64,000 nucleotides of DNA, taken from positions 62,001 through 126,000 of the forward strand of contig JAJQGO010000019.1 in NCBI GenBank assembly GCA_021200415.1. The letters run 5' to 3'. Source of the DNA: Ruminococcus sp. (GTDB lineage: Bacteria > Bacillota > Clostridia > Oscillospirales > Ruminococcaceae). The stretch's first letter is position 1. Every line of letters starts with the position of its first letter. The translations under genes and the position numbers were made by a program. The notes below the pieces were generated by a model. That model ran no database searches. It was not told the origin of the DNA and worked only from the letters and a program-made list of their open reading frames with translations. Positions 55,879-64,000 of this stretch are shown here, in pieces.

Positions 55879-56556
55879 ATGAACGATCTTGCTGAAAAGC
55901 TTATGGAAGAGCTTGACTGTCGGGTCGCCTTCAAAATCGGCGGAGTTATCCCCGTCCCCGAATCAGCTGTTATTTCATGGGTGATAATCGCCGTTCTCGC
56001 ACTGGTTTCCATTATTTTCGTGCGGAAGCTCAAAACCGTTCCCACCGGTTCGCAGTGCCTTATCGAAATCGGCATAAACTGGCTCAATAACTTCTTTCTG
56101 GAGATTCTTGGGCCGAGAGGGAAAAAATATCTTCCCATTCTGGAAACGCTCATCATCTACATCGGCGCTTCAAATATTGTGGGACTTTTCGGTCTGCGTC
56201 CCCCGACAAAGGATCTTGGCGTAACCGCGACACTCGCGATAATTGCCATAATTCTCATACAGTACGCGGGCATACGTGAAAAGGGTACAAAGGGCTGGCT
56301 CAGAAGCTTCAAGGAGCCTATGGCAGTTATGCTGCCCCTTAATATTCTCGAGCTGTTTATAAAGCCGCTTTCCCTTTGTATGCGACTTTTCGGAAACGTT
56401 CTGGGCGCATTCGTTGTTATGGAGCTTATTAAGCTCGTAGTGCCTGTGGGAATCCCCGTCGTGTTCAGCTTCTACTTCGATGTGTTCGACGGTCTTATTC
56501 AGGCATATGTATTTGTGTTCCTTACTTCGCTTTTCATGGCGGAAGCGATGGAATAA
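55879..56556 (+). CDS. atpB: ATP synthase F0 subunit a
   Basis: A 225-residue membrane protein with about six helices. The essential Arg is in SLCMRLFGNVLGAFVV, the proton half-channel helix; FVFLTSLFMAEAME is the last helix. It forms the half-channels next to the c-ring. AAGGTG precedes the ATG. No atpI precedes it. Confidence 0.95.
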   Translation: MNDLAEKLMEELDCRVAFKIGGVIPVPESAVISWVIIAVLALVSIIFVRKLKTVPTGSQCLIEIGINWLNNFFLEILGPRGKKYLPILETLIIYIGASNIVGLFGLRPPTKDLGVTATLAIIAIILIQYAGIREKGTKGWLRSFKEPMAVMLPLNILELFIKPLSLCMRLFGNVLGAFVVMELIKLVVPVGIPVVFSFYFDVFDGLIQAYVFVFLTSLFMAEAME

Positions 56557-56605
56557 AGGCAATACCGCACAGCTGTTACAGCAATTGATGTGCGGAGATG
56601 CCAAA
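56556..56605. repeat. Short inverted repeat resembling the dispersed element, between atpB and atpE
   Basis: GGCAATACCGCACA and TGTGCGGAGATGCC are imperfect inverted arms (11 of 14 paired) around a 17-base loop containing AGCTGTTACAGC. The termini TAAAGGCAATACCGCAC match the family, but the centre does not. Confidence 0.5.
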
Positions 56606-56633
56606 ACCAATTTTCAACAGGAGGATTTTAATT

Positions 56634-56855
56634 ATGGGATCAATAGCATTGGGAGCAGCGATCGCTGTACTCACAGGAATAGGCGCAGGTATCGGTATCG
56701 GTCTTGCTACATCTAAGGCAACAGAGTCTATCGCACGTCAGCCGGAGGCTAAGGGCGATATAAACAAGGCGCTCCTTCTCGGATGCGCACTTGCCGAAGC
56801 AACAGCTATTTACGGCTTCGTTATCGCTCTCCTTATCATACTGTTCCTTGGATAA
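56634..56855 (+). CDS. atpE: ATP synthase F0 subunit c
   Basis: A 73-residue hairpin of two helices, starting at ATG 56634 after CAGGAGG. Polar loop ARQPEAKGDINK. The ion carboxylate is Glu in LAEATAIYGF. Sodium-ring positions (Gln in helix 1, Ser after the Glu) are Ile and Ala here, so proton coupling is more likely than Na+; this is inference. It forms the c-ring. Confidence 0.95.
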   Translation: MGSIALGAAIAVLTGIGAGIGIGLATSKATESIARQPEAKGDINKALLLGCALAEATAIYGFVIALLIILFLG

Positions 56856-56929: not shown

Positions 56930-57430
56930 ATGCTGGATATTGATATTTGGAATTTTATCTGGGCAATTGTCAATATTGCCATTTTATTTGTTGTGCTCAG
57001 AATCTTCCTATTCAAACCAATTAACAAAATCATGGACGAACGCACAAAGTCCATTCAGAACGATATTGACTCGGCTCAGAAATCACGGGAAGAGGCTGAG
57101 GAGCTTAAAACTGAGTACACTCAGACTCTCGCTGACGCAAAGGCTGAGGCTCAGCAGATTATCGTAAAGGCGCGGGAGGAGGCTTCCGCCGCTAAACAGG
57201 AAATGATCAGCAGCTCCGAGGAAGAGGCAAGACAGATTATAGATACGGCAAACAAAACTATCGAAAACGAACGCAAAAGAGCTATGCAGGAGGCACAGTC
57301 GCACGTTGCCGACCTTGCTATAGCTGCGGCTTCTAAAATAATCGGCGAGAATGTGGACGATGAGAAAAACCGCCGCCTCGTTGATGATTTTCTTGCGGAA
57401 GAGGGTGCATTGAATAATGAGGGAGAATAA
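56930..57430 (+). CDS. atpF: ATP synthase F0 subunit b
   Basis: A 166-residue protein. One N-terminal helix (residues 5-27, [21 protein letters not shown]), then a long charged helical stalk ([24 protein letters not shown]). It is the peripheral stalk. It overlaps the atpHA fusion by 14 nt. GGAGG precedes the ATG. Confidence 0.95.
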
Positions 57431-59465
57431 CAGGGAGTATATCAAATATCTGGTGCGAAAGGAAATTCCGCTGTCAACTGTTGACGAGACAAAGCGGATT
57501 CTTTCGGCTTGCAGCGACCTCCCCGACACGCTTAACAATCCTGTCGTAACCGATGAGGAAAAGCATGGCATTATACGTCAGCTCTTTCCGGAGGAAATGC
57601 AACAGCTCATTTTCAGCGTGTGCGACGACGGAGCTGTGGGCAGGCTTGGGGAAATTTTAGATGAATATACCGAGCTTTGCATTGAGCGTCAGGGCAGCAT
57701 AAGAGCTGTGGTGCGCTATGTTACGCCTCTCACGGAATCCCAGCAGGAGGATATGAAAGCCTTTATCAAGGAAAAGTTCAACAGGGAGGACGTTAATATC
57801 GAATATCGCTGCGACCCTGATATTATCGGGGGATTTATCCTTAACGCAGGCGATTTCGAGTACGACAAAAGCTACCGCACAAGTCTCAGACTTATGCGAG
57901 AAAGCCTGAAAAACCGCGCGGAATCAAGCTCTGATGAGGAGTCGTTCGCGGACATCGGCACAGATGACAGCTCAAAAAGGGCAAGCGATATTATTTCCGT
58001 CCTCAAGAGCGAGGTAGATGATTTCGACCGCAAATCCGGCGTAACCGAAACAGGCTACGTAACACGTCTCGGCGATGGCATTGCTATGGTTCACGGCATG
58101 AATCACGTCATGTATGGCGAGCTTGTCGAGTTTGAAACGGGCATTCGCGGAATCGTTCAGAATATCGAAACAAAGTCTGTGGGAATCGTGCTTCTCGGCA
58201 GCGATCATGGACTTACGGAAGGCTCTACCGTTATACGCACGGGCAAGCGTGCAGGCATCGGTGTCAGCGACAAGCTCCTCGGCAGAGTTGTAGACGCTCT
58301 TGGCGCGCCTATTGACGGTCTGGGCAGCATACGTGCCGACGATTACTTCCCCATTGAGCGTGAAGCTCCCGGCGTAATCGAGCGTAAATCCGTCAGCGTT
58401 CCGCTTCAGACGGGTATTCTTGCCATAGATTCTATGTTCCCTATCGGCAGAGGTCAGCGTGAGCTTATTATCGGCGACCGCCAGACGGGTAAGACGTCTA
58501 TTGCCGTTGATACTATTATAAATCAGAAGGGACAGGACGTTATCTGCGTCTATGTGGCAATCGGTCAGAAGGCATCAACCGTGGCAAAGGTTGTGAATAC
58601 ACTGAAAACCTACGGAGCTATGGATTACTCAATCGTTGTTTCCGCCTCCGCAAGCGACCCTGCCCCCTTCCAGTACATCGCCCCCTATTCGGGTACGGCT
58701 ATGGCTGAATATTTCATGTCCAAGGGCAAGGACGTTCTCATCGTGTACGACGATCTCTCAAAGCACGCCGTTGCCTATCGTGCAATGTCGCTTCTGCTTC
58801 ACAGACCCCCGGGACGTGAGGCTTACCCCGGCGACGTATTCTATCTCCATTCAAGACTTCTCGAGCGCTCAAGCCGTCTTGACGACGAGCATGGCGGCGG
58901 ATCTCTTACGGCTCTCCCCATAATTGAAACTCTTGCGGGAGATGTTTCCGCGTACATCCCCACAAACGTCATTTCCATAACGGACGGTCAGATTTACCTC
59001 GAAAGCGAGCTGTTCTTCTCAGGCGTCCGTCCTGCCGTAAATGTGGGACTTTCCGTATCGCGTGTAGGCGGTGCGGCTCAGACAAAGGCAATGAAACAGG
59101 TTTCGGGAACTCTCCGTATCGACCTTGCGCAGTTCAAGGAAATGGAAATCTTCACGCAGTTTTCTTCCGACCTCGACCCTGCGACAACAGAGCTGCTCAA
59201 TCACGGTCATATGCTGACGGAGCTTCTGAAGCAGCCTCTTTACAACCCGATCCCGCACAGCGAACAGGTGGTGCTTCTTTATGGGGCAACACACGGCTTC
59301 TTTGATGATGTTCCCGTAACCGGTCTGCGGAGCTTCAGGGAAAATCTCATGGGCTATATAAAAACCTTCGCGTCTGATATATTGCGGGATATTGACGAGA
59401 AAAAAATCCTTGACGACGATATGTGCAAGCGCATGGAGAAGGTTATCAGGGATTTCAAGAGCTAA
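57417..59465 (+). CDS. ATP synthase delta-alpha fusion protein
   Basis: A 682-residue single ORF with no stop. Residues 1-165 match the delta subunit (peripheral stalk cap): [64 protein letters not shown]. An acidic linker (about 168-187) follows. Residues 188-682 match the alpha subunit: [28 protein letters not shown], Walker A GDRQTGKT at 353-360, then [13 protein letters not shown] and [25 protein letters not shown]. The delta part lacks the first family helix partly. No separate atpH or atpA exists in the operon, so this protein must replace both. It overlaps atpF by 14 nt, and atpG follows by 15 bases. Confidence 0.92.
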
Positions 59466-59480: not shown

Positions 59481-60389
59481 GTGGCTAATATGAAAGAAAT
59501 TCGCGAGAGAATCGCAAGTATTCAGCAGATTTTGAAAATCACCAACGCCATGTATCTCATGTCGTCGTCGAAGCTGAAAAAGGCACGCAAGGCTCACGAG
59601 AATACAAGACCCTACTTCGATAAGCTTCAGGAAACGCTGGAGGATATTCTCGAGCATACTCCCCATACACGCCAGACGTATTTCGACAGGCGTTCGCATA
59701 TCCCCGAGGAACAGCGAAAGAAAGGCTTCGTTATAATTACCGCGGACAAGGGACTTTGCGGAAGCTATAACCATAACGTCATAAAGCTTGCGGAACAGGA
59801 GCTGAAAAAGGCTTTCGCAAATAACTGCTACATCTTCGTTCTCGGAGAGGTGGGCAGGCATTACTTCATGAGCCGCAACAATGAGATTGACCACTCCACT
59901 ATTGACGGAGAATTTCTCTATACAACGCAGAATCCCACACTCTACAGGGCAAGGGAAATTGCGGAGATAGTTCTCGACAGATTCGATAAAAAGGAGCTTG
60001 ACGAGGTTTATCTCATCTATACCTACATGAAGGGAAATGAGTTTGAGCCGAAAACTGTCAGACTTCTCCCCTTTGAGCGAAAGCATTTCGGCGTTGACAA
60101 GAAGGACGGTACTCTCAAAAAGCTCCCGAAGGCGTCGTTCCTGCCCTCACCGGAGGAGGTTATGAACTATCTCATACCGAACTACGCAAAGGGACTTATC
60201 TACGGAGCTATGGTTGAGGCGTTCTGCTGCGAGCAGCAGGCACGCATGACGGCTATGGATGCCGCGTCAAACAGCGCAAGAGATATGATAAAGGATCTCT
60301 CCCTCATGTATAACCGTGCAAGACAGGCGGCTATAACTCAGGAAATAACTGAGGTTGCGGGCGGAGCTAACGCAATGGGCGATGAGTAA
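59481..60389 (+). CDS. atpG: ATP synthase F1 subunit gamma
   Basis: A 302-residue protein. N-terminal helix EIRERIASIQQILKITNAMYLMSSSKLKKA and C-terminal helix AMTAMDAASNSARDMIKDLSLMYNRARQAAITQEITEVAGGANA form the rotor coiled coil. KGFVIITADKGLCGSYN is the family Rossmann region. The start is GTG 59481 after AGGTGAAG; ATG at 59490 is an alternative. Confidence 0.95.
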   Translation: MANMKEIRERIASIQQILKITNAMYLMSSSKLKKARKAHENTRPYFDKLQETLEDILEHTPHTRQTYFDRRSHIPEEQRKKGFVIITADKGLCGSYNHNVIKLAEQELKKAFANNCYIFVLGEVGRHYFMSRNNEIDHSTIDGEFLYTTQNPTLYRAREIAEIVLDRFDKKELDEVYLIYTYMKGNEFEPKTVRLLPFERKHFGVDKKDGTLKKLPKASFLPSPEEVMNYLIPNYAKGLIYGAMVEAFCCEQQARMTAMDAASNSARDMIKDLSLMYNRARQAAITQEITEVAGGANAMGDE

Positions 60390-60422: not shown

Positions 60423-61823
<1,401 letters not shown>

Positions 61824-61835
61824 GGAGGCGCTGTC

Positions 61836-62246
61836 ATGGCTAAAACCTTCCACCTTGAAATAATCGCAAGCGACCGAGTTTTCTTTGAGGGCGAATGCGA
61901 GCATCTCGTTGTGACTGCTCTTGACGGACTTCTGGGAATCCTTTCGGGTCATGAGCCTCTTGTAACCTCTCTGCCCACAGGTGAGCTGAAATACATGACT
62001 GACGGGAAGTGGCACTACGCCGCAATTTCCGAAGGGTTTATGGAGGTTATGCCGGATTTCGCCATAATTCTTGCGGATTACTGTGAGCTGCCGGAGGAAA
62101 TTGACGTTAAGCGTGCCGAGGAGGCAAAAAAGCGTGCCGAGGAGAAGCTCCGCCACAAGCAGAGCATTATGGAGTATTATCACACTCAGGCTGCGCTGAA
62201 CAAGGCAATGAACAGATTAAAGGTATCGCAGAAGCATTTTAAATAA
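61836..62246 (+). CDS. atpC: ATP synthase F1 subunit epsilon
   Basis: A 136-residue protein. The beta-sandwich part (FHLEIIASDRVFFEGECEHLVVTALDG, then GLLGILSGHEPLVTSLPTGEL) is normal, followed by the two-helix tail (RAEEAKKRAEEKLRHKQS). It inhibits hydrolysis when extended. It ends the operon with a terminator eight bases later. Confidence 0.95.
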   Translation: MAKTFHLEIIASDRVFFEGECEHLVVTALDGLLGILSGHEPLVTSLPTGELKYMTDGKWHYAAISEGFMEVMPDFAIILADYCELPEEIDVKRAEEAKKRAEEKLRHKQSIMEYYHTQAALNKAMNRLKVSQKHFK

Positions 62247-62300: not shown

Positions 62301-62966
62301 TTATTGCTTTGTAAGCTCAAGAGTGCTGCCGGAATTTTCAGTAAGTGTGAGCGTATCTCCGTCAATTTCGTATTCACAGATTGCGTCCTCTTCGGATTCA
62401 AATTCAAAGAATTCAACACCCTCGCCTGTGAATTCTACCGTTTCTCCGTCAGCCTTGTATTCGCAGATTTGCAGATTCAGATAAAGCAGCTCACCGTCTA
62501 TAGTCATTGTGAAATCCGCGTCAATCTCGCTGAATGTTGACGTAAGCTCGTCATAGAGGTCGCCGCCGACAAGTGTATATTCGCCGTCAATTGAATCCTC
62601 ATCAGCGTCGCCGATTCTTTCAACCTCGAGAAGAAGCATTTCCTCATCTGCGCCGTCGTCCTCATCCATAGTAACGCTGAGAGTTGTACCGTCGTATTCC
62701 GAATCGAAGGTCACTGTGGAAACTATAAAGTTCTGATCCTCATCGAAATACATGATAGACGAATAGTCAGCTGAAAGCACGACTGTATTGTCCTCCTCAA
62801 AGCAGAAGCTGCCGCCCAGATCCTCGTTATACCATCTGCCGATAAGGGCTTCATCTATGTCACTGGATTTGCTTTCGGATTCGCTGTCAGTTTTTCCGTC
62901 TCCGCAGCCTGTCATTGCTGCAGCCAATGCTGTACAGGAAAGTAAAATTGCAAGAAGCTTTTTCAT
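62301..62966 (-). CDS. Lipoprotein with acidic linker and beta-rich domain
   Basis: A 221-residue protein with the lipobox MTGCGDG (lipid Cys at residue 21). A short Ser/Asp/Glu linker is followed by ALIGRWYNEDLGGSFCFEEDN, which looks like the start of a beta-sheet (lipocalin-like) domain as in DUF5640-type Firmicute lipoproteins. Function unknown. GGAGG precedes the ATG. It is convergent with atpC. Confidence 0.75.
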   Translation of the reverse strand: MKKLLAILLSCTALAAAMTGCGDGKTDSESESKSSDIDEALIGRWYNEDLGGSFCFEEDNTVVLSADYSSIMYFDEDQNFIVSTVTFDSEYDGTTLSVTMDEDDGADEEMLLLEVERIGDADEDSIDGEYTLVGGDLYDELTSTFSEIDADFTMTIDGELLYLNLQICEYKADGETVEFTGEGVEFFEFESEEDAICEYEIDGDTLTLTENSGSTLELTKQ

Positions 62967-63565: not shown

Positions 63566-64000
63566 ATGCCTGATTCAAATCTTAAACAAAAACGAAAAGC
63601 ATTTTGCTGCAGCTATGTGCTGCTGGGAAATGTGGAGGAGGCTGCGGTAAGAGCAGGCTTCAGCAGAGAATGCGCCCTTTCCGAAGGAGTCGCGTGTCTT
63701 GAATCCGCCGAGTGTAGGAGGCTTATTGCAAAGCTCAGAAATACTCTCGCGGACAGCGGAAATGTTATCTCAGGTCTGAAGCGACTTGCCTTCGGAAGCT
63801 GTACCGATGCGGTTTACCTTGTCTTCGCCGACGAGCTCCCACCTTCAAGCGTTATTTCAAATCTCGATCTGTTTAACGTGTCCGAGATAAAACGTGTGAA
63901 GGGCGGCGGAGTTGAGGTTAAGCTGTTCGACAGACAGAAGGCGCTGGAAAAGCTTTTTGAGTTCGAGAATACCTGTTCCGACCGCGGAAGCGCTGAAAGC
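63566..64000 (+). CDS. Terminase small subunit-like protein, 3' end cut by the window
   Basis: An ATG at 63566 after AAAGGAGG opens a frame that runs without a stop to the end (145 codons). AFCCSYVLLGNVEEAAVRAGFS is the N-terminal HTH-like helix pattern of phage terminase small subunits (Terminase_2). The middle (LKRLAFGSCTDAVYLVFADE) and FNVSEIKRVKGGGVEVKLFDRQKALEKLFEF also fit that family. In phages it binds packaging sites and hands DNA to the large subunit. The next genes are not visible, so a prophage start or a domesticated gene are both possible. Confidence 0.65.
   Translation, partial: MPDSNLKQKRKAFCCSYVLLGNVEEAAVRAGFSRECALSEGVACLESAECRRLIAKLRNTLADSGNVISGLKRLAFGSCTDAVYLVFADELPPSSVISNLDLFNVSEIKRVKGGGVEVKLFDRQKALEKLFEFENTCSDRGSAES

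Follow-up and report, generated by a model that had tools for sequence, protein, structure and literature searches.

What happens to the subunit balance of an F1Fo ATP synthase when delta and alpha, which the enzyme contains in one and three copies, are encoded as a single chain? That there is one delta for three alpha is a textbook asymmetry of F1Fo. The question is raised by a locus in a stretch of 64,000 nucleotides from Ruminococcus sp. (assembly GCA_021200415.1, contig JAJQGO010000019.1, positions 62,001 to 126,000), hereafter the window, where an ATP synthase operon holds a fused delta-alpha gene, here called atpHA.

A single frame encodes complete delta and alpha subunits

Positions 57417-59465 of the forward strand hold a single open reading frame (ORF) with an ATG start, 682 codons and a stop. 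The start lies 14 nt inside the end of atpF, and the frame sits between atpF and atpG in the gene order atpB-E-F-(HA)-G-D-C. It is divided as follows, dN/dS being the ratio of nonsynonymous to synonymous substitution rates and pLDDT the predicted local distance difference test score.

57417..59465 (+), fused delta-alpha gene atpHA: single ORF with OSCP and alpha domains; the fusion is shared by 88 of 100 genomes in the genus
57417..57692 (+), delta N-terminal domain (NTD), residues 1-92, a six-helix bundle
57693..57911 (+), delta C-terminal domain (CTD), residues 93-165, aligning with chain I of PDB 9jc1; dN/dS 0.068 in the genus
57912..57977 (+), linker, residues 166-187, differing in both length and sequence (from the lengths in relatives, dN/dS of 0.385 and pLDDT)
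57978..59462 (+), complete alpha subunit, residues 188-682 (TIGR00962 and motifs)

The Pfam OSCP profile (PF00213) matched residues 23-164 (profile positions 27-172 of 172; 93.4 bits against a cut-off of 22.3) and spans both delta domains, the six-helix NTD and the alpha/beta CTD. In known enzymes, the CTD is the domain that binds the b2 dimer. The alpha model TIGR00962 covered residues 188-681 (profile positions 3-498 of 503; 769 bits against a cut-off of 484.45), with the three Pfam alpha domains at residues 211-276, 333-548 and 555-680. Both the P-loop GDRQTGKT (353-360) and the SVSRVGG stretch (546-552), which we take to be the arginine-finger motif, are invariant in 41 aligned rows, and the full-length structure model predicts the N-terminal helix of alpha at about residues 192-203. 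These matches bear out the initial annotation, made from the sequence, which had read the frame as one uninterrupted 682-residue delta plus alpha protein. Models for alternate F1F0 enzymes (TIGR03321, TIGR03324, TIGR03305) scored below their own cut-offs. The neighbouring atpF protein matched ATP-synt_B and, below threshold, DUF948, but not OSCP.

The fused frame is shared across the genus

The draft state of the genome leaves room for a sequencing or assembly artefact, a missing stop or a pseudogene. The distribution of the frame refutes this and reduces its probability to a practically negligible level. A full-length single fused frame was present in 88 of 100 genomes of the genus; three others had it partial or broken (G328, G325, G353), four had separate genes only (G375, G376, G311, G346) and five lacked an F-type alpha (G312, G317, G329, G360, G387). 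A scan of named genomes confirmed 325 loci, of which the best 80 were kept. All 80 were fused, with 176-203 delta and linker residues ahead of alpha in one ORF, although the frame of one (L255) stops early at 576 amino acids. Seventy-six are titled Ruminococcus and the other four only Oscillospiraceae, Clostridiales or Bacillota. Together, the 115 parsed genus loci (35 plus 80) represent 84 distinct proteins. Because relatives including cultured isolates share the frame (R. flavefaciens ATCC 19208, FD-1, 007c, ND2009, MA2007 and MC2020), frame errors can be excluded, and the frameshift or missing stop that had been named as a possible refutation did not occur. A pseudogene is further contradicted by purifying selection at both ends of the fused protein.

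Two equal-scoring copies of the fused gene lie on two contigs of R. flavefaciens FD-1 (L210, L211), by duplication or assembly redundancy; the observation also concerns contigs C31 and C41 of genome G337.

No other delta or F-type alpha gene was found in the window genome

The initial annotation had also found no separate atpH or atpA in the operon and had proposed looking for them elsewhere. The genome of the window (2.35 Mb in 64 contigs, 99.5% complete) gave the same answer: searches with the OSCP and ATP-synt_ab profiles found neither a separate atpH nor a separate F-type atpA. OSCP matched once, in the fused ORF. ATP-synt_ab matched four times, in the fused ORF, in atpD and in a pair on contig C38 (G000, 238496-240678; loci L003 and L005), whose frames of 461 and 596 amino acids have the sizes of V/A-type B and A subunits and are classed by size alone. 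Searches turned up a single F-type ATP synthase in this genome of the Ruminococcus group, and the fused gene encodes a real and conserved subunit of it. As a separate observation, the V/A-sized pair means that the genome may hold two rotary ATPases.

Elsewhere in the genus, ten fetched operons carry separate delta and alpha genes. Four (L119-L122) come from genomes without a visible fused frame and six (L123-L128) from genomes that have the fused gene too; therefore, the fused enzyme is not always the sole one in the genus. In the latter six operons, gamma is short (266-267 amino acids), as is epsilon where visible (85-87).

The fusion retains the domain that an engineered counterpart removed

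The initial annotation knew of no described delta-alpha fusion, but such fusions are reported by Ueno et al. (2025; PMC12229609). There, the NTD of Bacillus PS3 delta was removed and the CTD fused to alpha (deltaDeltaN-alpha), which gave an enzyme with up to three stalks and an H+/ATP ratio of 5.8; the authors argue that the NTD, by sitting on the symmetry axis, allows only a single stalk. They also report that Acidaminococcus fermentans has a natural fusion lacking the NTD, and that two UniProt entries (G4Q3K6, A0A1I2C5T3) have similar features. As described there, these natural fusions resemble the window in joining delta and alpha in one gene of an F1Fo operon, and differ in missing the NTD that the window has.

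Alignment places the window protein next to the engineered one. PDB 9jc1 holds a chain of the deltaDeltaN-alpha fusion, and window residues 93-675 align with residues 2-571 of chain I, the delta CTD (93-162) with residues 2-71. Among the 60 matches listed of 65 PDB sequences, this chain alone had its best match reaching into delta. In both proteins, the C-terminus of the delta CTD is joined to the N-terminus of alpha and there is no free delta, but the window fusion is natural and retains the whole NTD that the design removed, here about 12 residues shorter than the segment deleted from PS3 delta (residues 2-104). The window thus shares with this class a delta CTD and alpha in one ORF and the lack of another delta or F-type alpha gene, but not the absence of the NTD, which is complete and under purifying selection. 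Compared with ordinary AtpH and AtpA of Bacillus PS3, both folds are complete and in the same domain order, but the ordinary proteins come from two genes with one delta per F1.

In mycobacterial b-delta proteins, there is one fused copy per enzyme, hence no stoichiometry conflict. Delta is likewise a domain of a larger stator chain (PDB 7jg5 and others), but its partner there is b, whereas in the window b is separate (166 amino acids) and the partner is alpha, present in three copies. PMC5709465 lists such a delta/b fusion (Rosetta Stone) for Gordonia and some mycobacteria. N-ATPases, according to PMC5706428, have no delta and a longer b. They resemble the window in being F-type enzymes without a separate delta gene, but the window has delta as a domain and a b of 166 amino acids.

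We found no description of a natural delta-alpha fusion that retains its NTD, in a literature search that left most subscription journals uncovered. The delta-alpha fusion idea itself is already known; the part for which no precedent turned up is the natural fusion that keeps the NTD.

The N-terminal domain remains under selection

Selection on the four parts of the protein was compared in 35 fused genus loci, using 188 pairs that passed the filter (pairs with a synonymous difference outside 0.05-0.55 were dropped). The dN/dS was lowest in alpha (0.051) and the CTD (0.068), higher in the NTD (0.187) and highest in the linker (0.385). In thirteen groups with separate delta, the NTD value was 0.11-0.30. 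Because the value in the genus lies within this range, the NTD of the fused protein is not decaying but remains under selection, and no sign of NTD relaxation after fusion was seen.

For distance ratios, pairs with an alpha p-distance below 0.03 were dropped. The NTD/CTD ratio was 3.4 in the genus, compared with 0.8-2.3 in groups with separate delta and 1.0-1.8 in three further groups with full-length fusions; this high contrast is due mainly to the strongly constrained CTD. The CTD/alpha ratio was correspondingly low (1.73, or 1.51 with trimmed domain bounds). Raised CTD constraint was not, however, a general result of fusion: nine fused groups did not differ significantly from fourteen separate ones (one-sided Mann-Whitney p = 0.16, pairs within a group not being independent).

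We also considered a special relaxation of NTD helices 1 and 5, presumably the alpha-binding face, and rejected it as an effect of fusion. The ratio of this face to the rest was 0.99 in the genus and 1.03 in a second genus with fusions (g35), their unfused sisters were alike (0.94 and 1.09), and two other fused groups had a ratio of 0.49.

Cleavage in the linker and internal initiation are unlikely

Across 75 distinct relatives, the linker measures 14-25 residues counted from a set position in the last CTD helix to the alpha motif DIISVLK. It had been described as acidic, which these relatives do not support, averaging 3.3 acidic and 2.7 basic residues. In the predicted model, the first linker residues prolong the last CTD helix. 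The full-length model was poor (mean pLDDT 60.5, predicted template modelling score 0.39), so the placement of delta relative to alpha was not used; its fold comparison had alpha chains only among the matches listed. A delta-only model leaves the alpha helix unplaced, with pLDDT below 50 over residues 176-200.

A linker so variable and of such low confidence would be easy to cut, and cleavage after translation into ordinary delta and alpha, two deltas out of every three being discarded, would restore the normal stoichiometry. We consider this improbable. There is no conserved site in a segment of variable length with the highest dN/dS of the protein, the linker is shorter in other aligned fused lineages, and if delta were simply set free, it would be hard to see why fused relatives have lost the NTD.

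Internal initiation near the linker could also yield a separate alpha, such that only some alpha chains bear delta. An in-frame ATG near the CTD end or in the linker is indeed present in 34 of the 35 genus loci, and five have an internal start that pairs with the anti-Shine-Dalgarno sequence at -5 kcal/mol or stronger (L045, L051, L059, L061, L070). The better-paired internal starts, however, differ in position among loci, and the ATG that most relatives share has weak pairing at best (-3.8 to +1.2). Pairing at the start of the fused gene is strong in 33 of the 35 loci (-8.6 to -12.4 kcal/mol); in the window and L037 it is moderate (-6.3 kcal/mol). In the window, the sole in-frame start of the linker region, the ATG at codon 160, showed no pairing (0.0 kcal/mol). 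Re-initiation inside the window ORF is unsupported by this analysis, and internal initiation is on this evidence very unlikely.

Delta and alpha were joined or separated repeatedly

Fused frames extend beyond the genus, to at least 35 of 391 genomes of the class in 17 family groups and to at least 18 of 398 genomes of the phylum plus one partial frame, five genomes being common to both sets. They come in two shapes, with a full delta of 172-203 residues ahead of alpha or, in the NTD-less form, 77-141. In the family sample, seven genomes (G066, G159, G061, G218, G084, G075, G183) gave a single weak OSCP match and carry an NTD-less fusion.

Tree rows were chosen by hand from the parsed loci. An alpha tree of 57 rows contained seven changes between separate and fused genes, at least six of them forced by well-supported branches, and a quick tree of 96 rows, with some long branches, contained seven too. 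Some of these changes could be fissions, the trees leaving the root and gain versus loss undecided. A single origin for the fusions of Ruminococcus and g35 was rejected (approximately unbiased test, p = 1e-4), as was a single clade of all full fusions (p = 1.6e-4). On the alpha tree, the Ruminococcus fusion appears to have arisen apart from the NTD-less fused clades sampled. In g35, the earliest branch is a full-length fusion (L113), and the four NTD-less rows are grouped in a clade nested inside (bootstrap 100). Fusion therefore came first in g35 and NTD loss later. Two of the four keep only 27 residues ahead of the CTD, which we read as helix 6.

In the sister rows of the Ruminococcus fusion, delta and alpha adjoin on one strand. 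With starts set mechanically, the gaps are 9 nt in L129 and L130, 10 in L132, 16 in L311, -4 in L312, 18 in L131 and 230 in L313. Two in-frame stops separate the genes in the closest in-frame sisters (G208, G027) and in G229; other sister rows have gaps whose length is not divisible by three. The idea that losing one stop codon was the whole cause is thus not supported, and the two intervening stops imply that fusion took more than one small change. One row without a delta ORF on its contig piece (L310) was left out of the delta alignments and kept in the trees as separate, while L301, with a long N-terminal extension and no delta ORF found beside it, was excluded from all trees and rate groups.

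A probable single stalk with two spare heads, or possibly several stalks

Provided that alpha3beta3 is retained and no cleavage occurs, each F1 would carry three tethered delta units, one for each alpha. Our initial annotation had been right to see a real problem in three alpha and one delta, but had overlooked that three deltas could hold up to three stalks.

We lean towards an enzyme with one NTD seated on F1, a single main stalk and two delta heads to spare. Loss of the stop and spacer between neighbouring delta and alpha genes would have produced the single chain. Because the NTD is intact and still selected, one copy would then occupy the same central dimple of alpha3beta3 in which it sits in ordinary enzymes. 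The CTD of the same chain would hold the b2 stalk, while the other two delta units, given slack by the flexible linker, would remain off to the side as spare heads. Stator and F1, normally joined by a reversible delta-F1 bond, would here be linked by the covalent tether instead.

Several points weigh against this arrangement. Three NTDs cannot all occupy the axis, and the tolerance of two unused delta units by selection lacks an explanation. Constraint on the NTD in the genus is far weaker than on the CTD, and the domain may be less important than in ordinary enzymes; its loss after fusion in the related genus g35 shows that it can become dispensable.

Alternatively, each tethered CTD could recruit a b2 dimer together with one subunit a, giving a natural enzyme with two or three stalks, its NTDs pushed aside on the linkers. 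The H+/ATP ratio would rise, allowing ATP synthesis at low proton-motive force. Up to three stalks and an H+/ATP ratio of 5.8 are reported for the engineered deltaDeltaN-alpha PS3 enzyme (PMC12229609), but here the NTD, to which the blocking of extra stalks in PS3 is attributed, is both complete and under selection. The genus CTD is nearly as constrained as alpha, both by dN/dS and by its low CTD/alpha distance ratio, but, as noted above, this is not general among fused groups, and four of the five NTD-less groups, in which several stalks would be expected, lack raised CTD constraint, the fifth being a single pair. The linker looks flexible, and repeated fusion with NTD loss nested in a fused clade is the path that such an enzyme would need; an operon with one a and one b gene gives no support. 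We regard several stalks as a serious alternative, though the less probable reading. For the R. flavefaciens group itself, two or three b2/a stators per c-ring, with NTDs displaced or repurposed, are likewise less likely than not.

Were it true, repeated fusion followed by NTD loss would be a convergent route to variable H+/ATP in anaerobes. With every alpha bearing a whole delta including its NTD, the fused enzyme offers a direct test of whether the NTD fixes the stalk number at one, and a natural test case, in a cultured rumen bacterium, for ATP synthases that possibly hold more than one stalk. The fused lineages are natural intermediates between the ordinary enzyme and the engineered multi-stalk design, and such intermediates make natural variable H+/ATP ratios an answerable question.

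Other genes of the operon and its surroundings

The remaining subunits are encoded by separate ORFs, each with a family match.

55879..56556 (+), atpB, subunit a
56598..56855 (+), atpE, subunit c, one copy
56930..57430 (+), atpF, subunit b, 166 amino acids, one copy, not extended
59481..60389 (+), atpG, subunit gamma, GTG start
60423..61823 (+), atpD, subunit beta
61836..62246 (+), atpC, subunit epsilon

Many relatives have two atpE genes (L188-L226; L129, L131, L132), compared with one in the window. The c-subunit motif of the genus is GxGxGIGIG ... LAEATAIY, from which the usual sodium-binding glutamine seems to be missing; given this, protons are the likely coupling ion. Nine of the ten NTD-less relatives L100-L109 (all but L102) have long N-termini on c (125-167 amino acids) and a (267-385 amino acids), the a and c starts of this set having been placed mechanically. 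In the NTD-less relative L107 (1730-4542), beta and gamma are split into several ORFs, perhaps by assembly frameshifts.

Just past atpC, on the reverse strand, lies a lipoprotein-like ORF (62301-62966) with a lipobox-like stretch containing CG near its N-terminus. An ORF at 63566-64000, which runs off the end of the window, may encode a phage terminase small subunit, to judge by resemblance.
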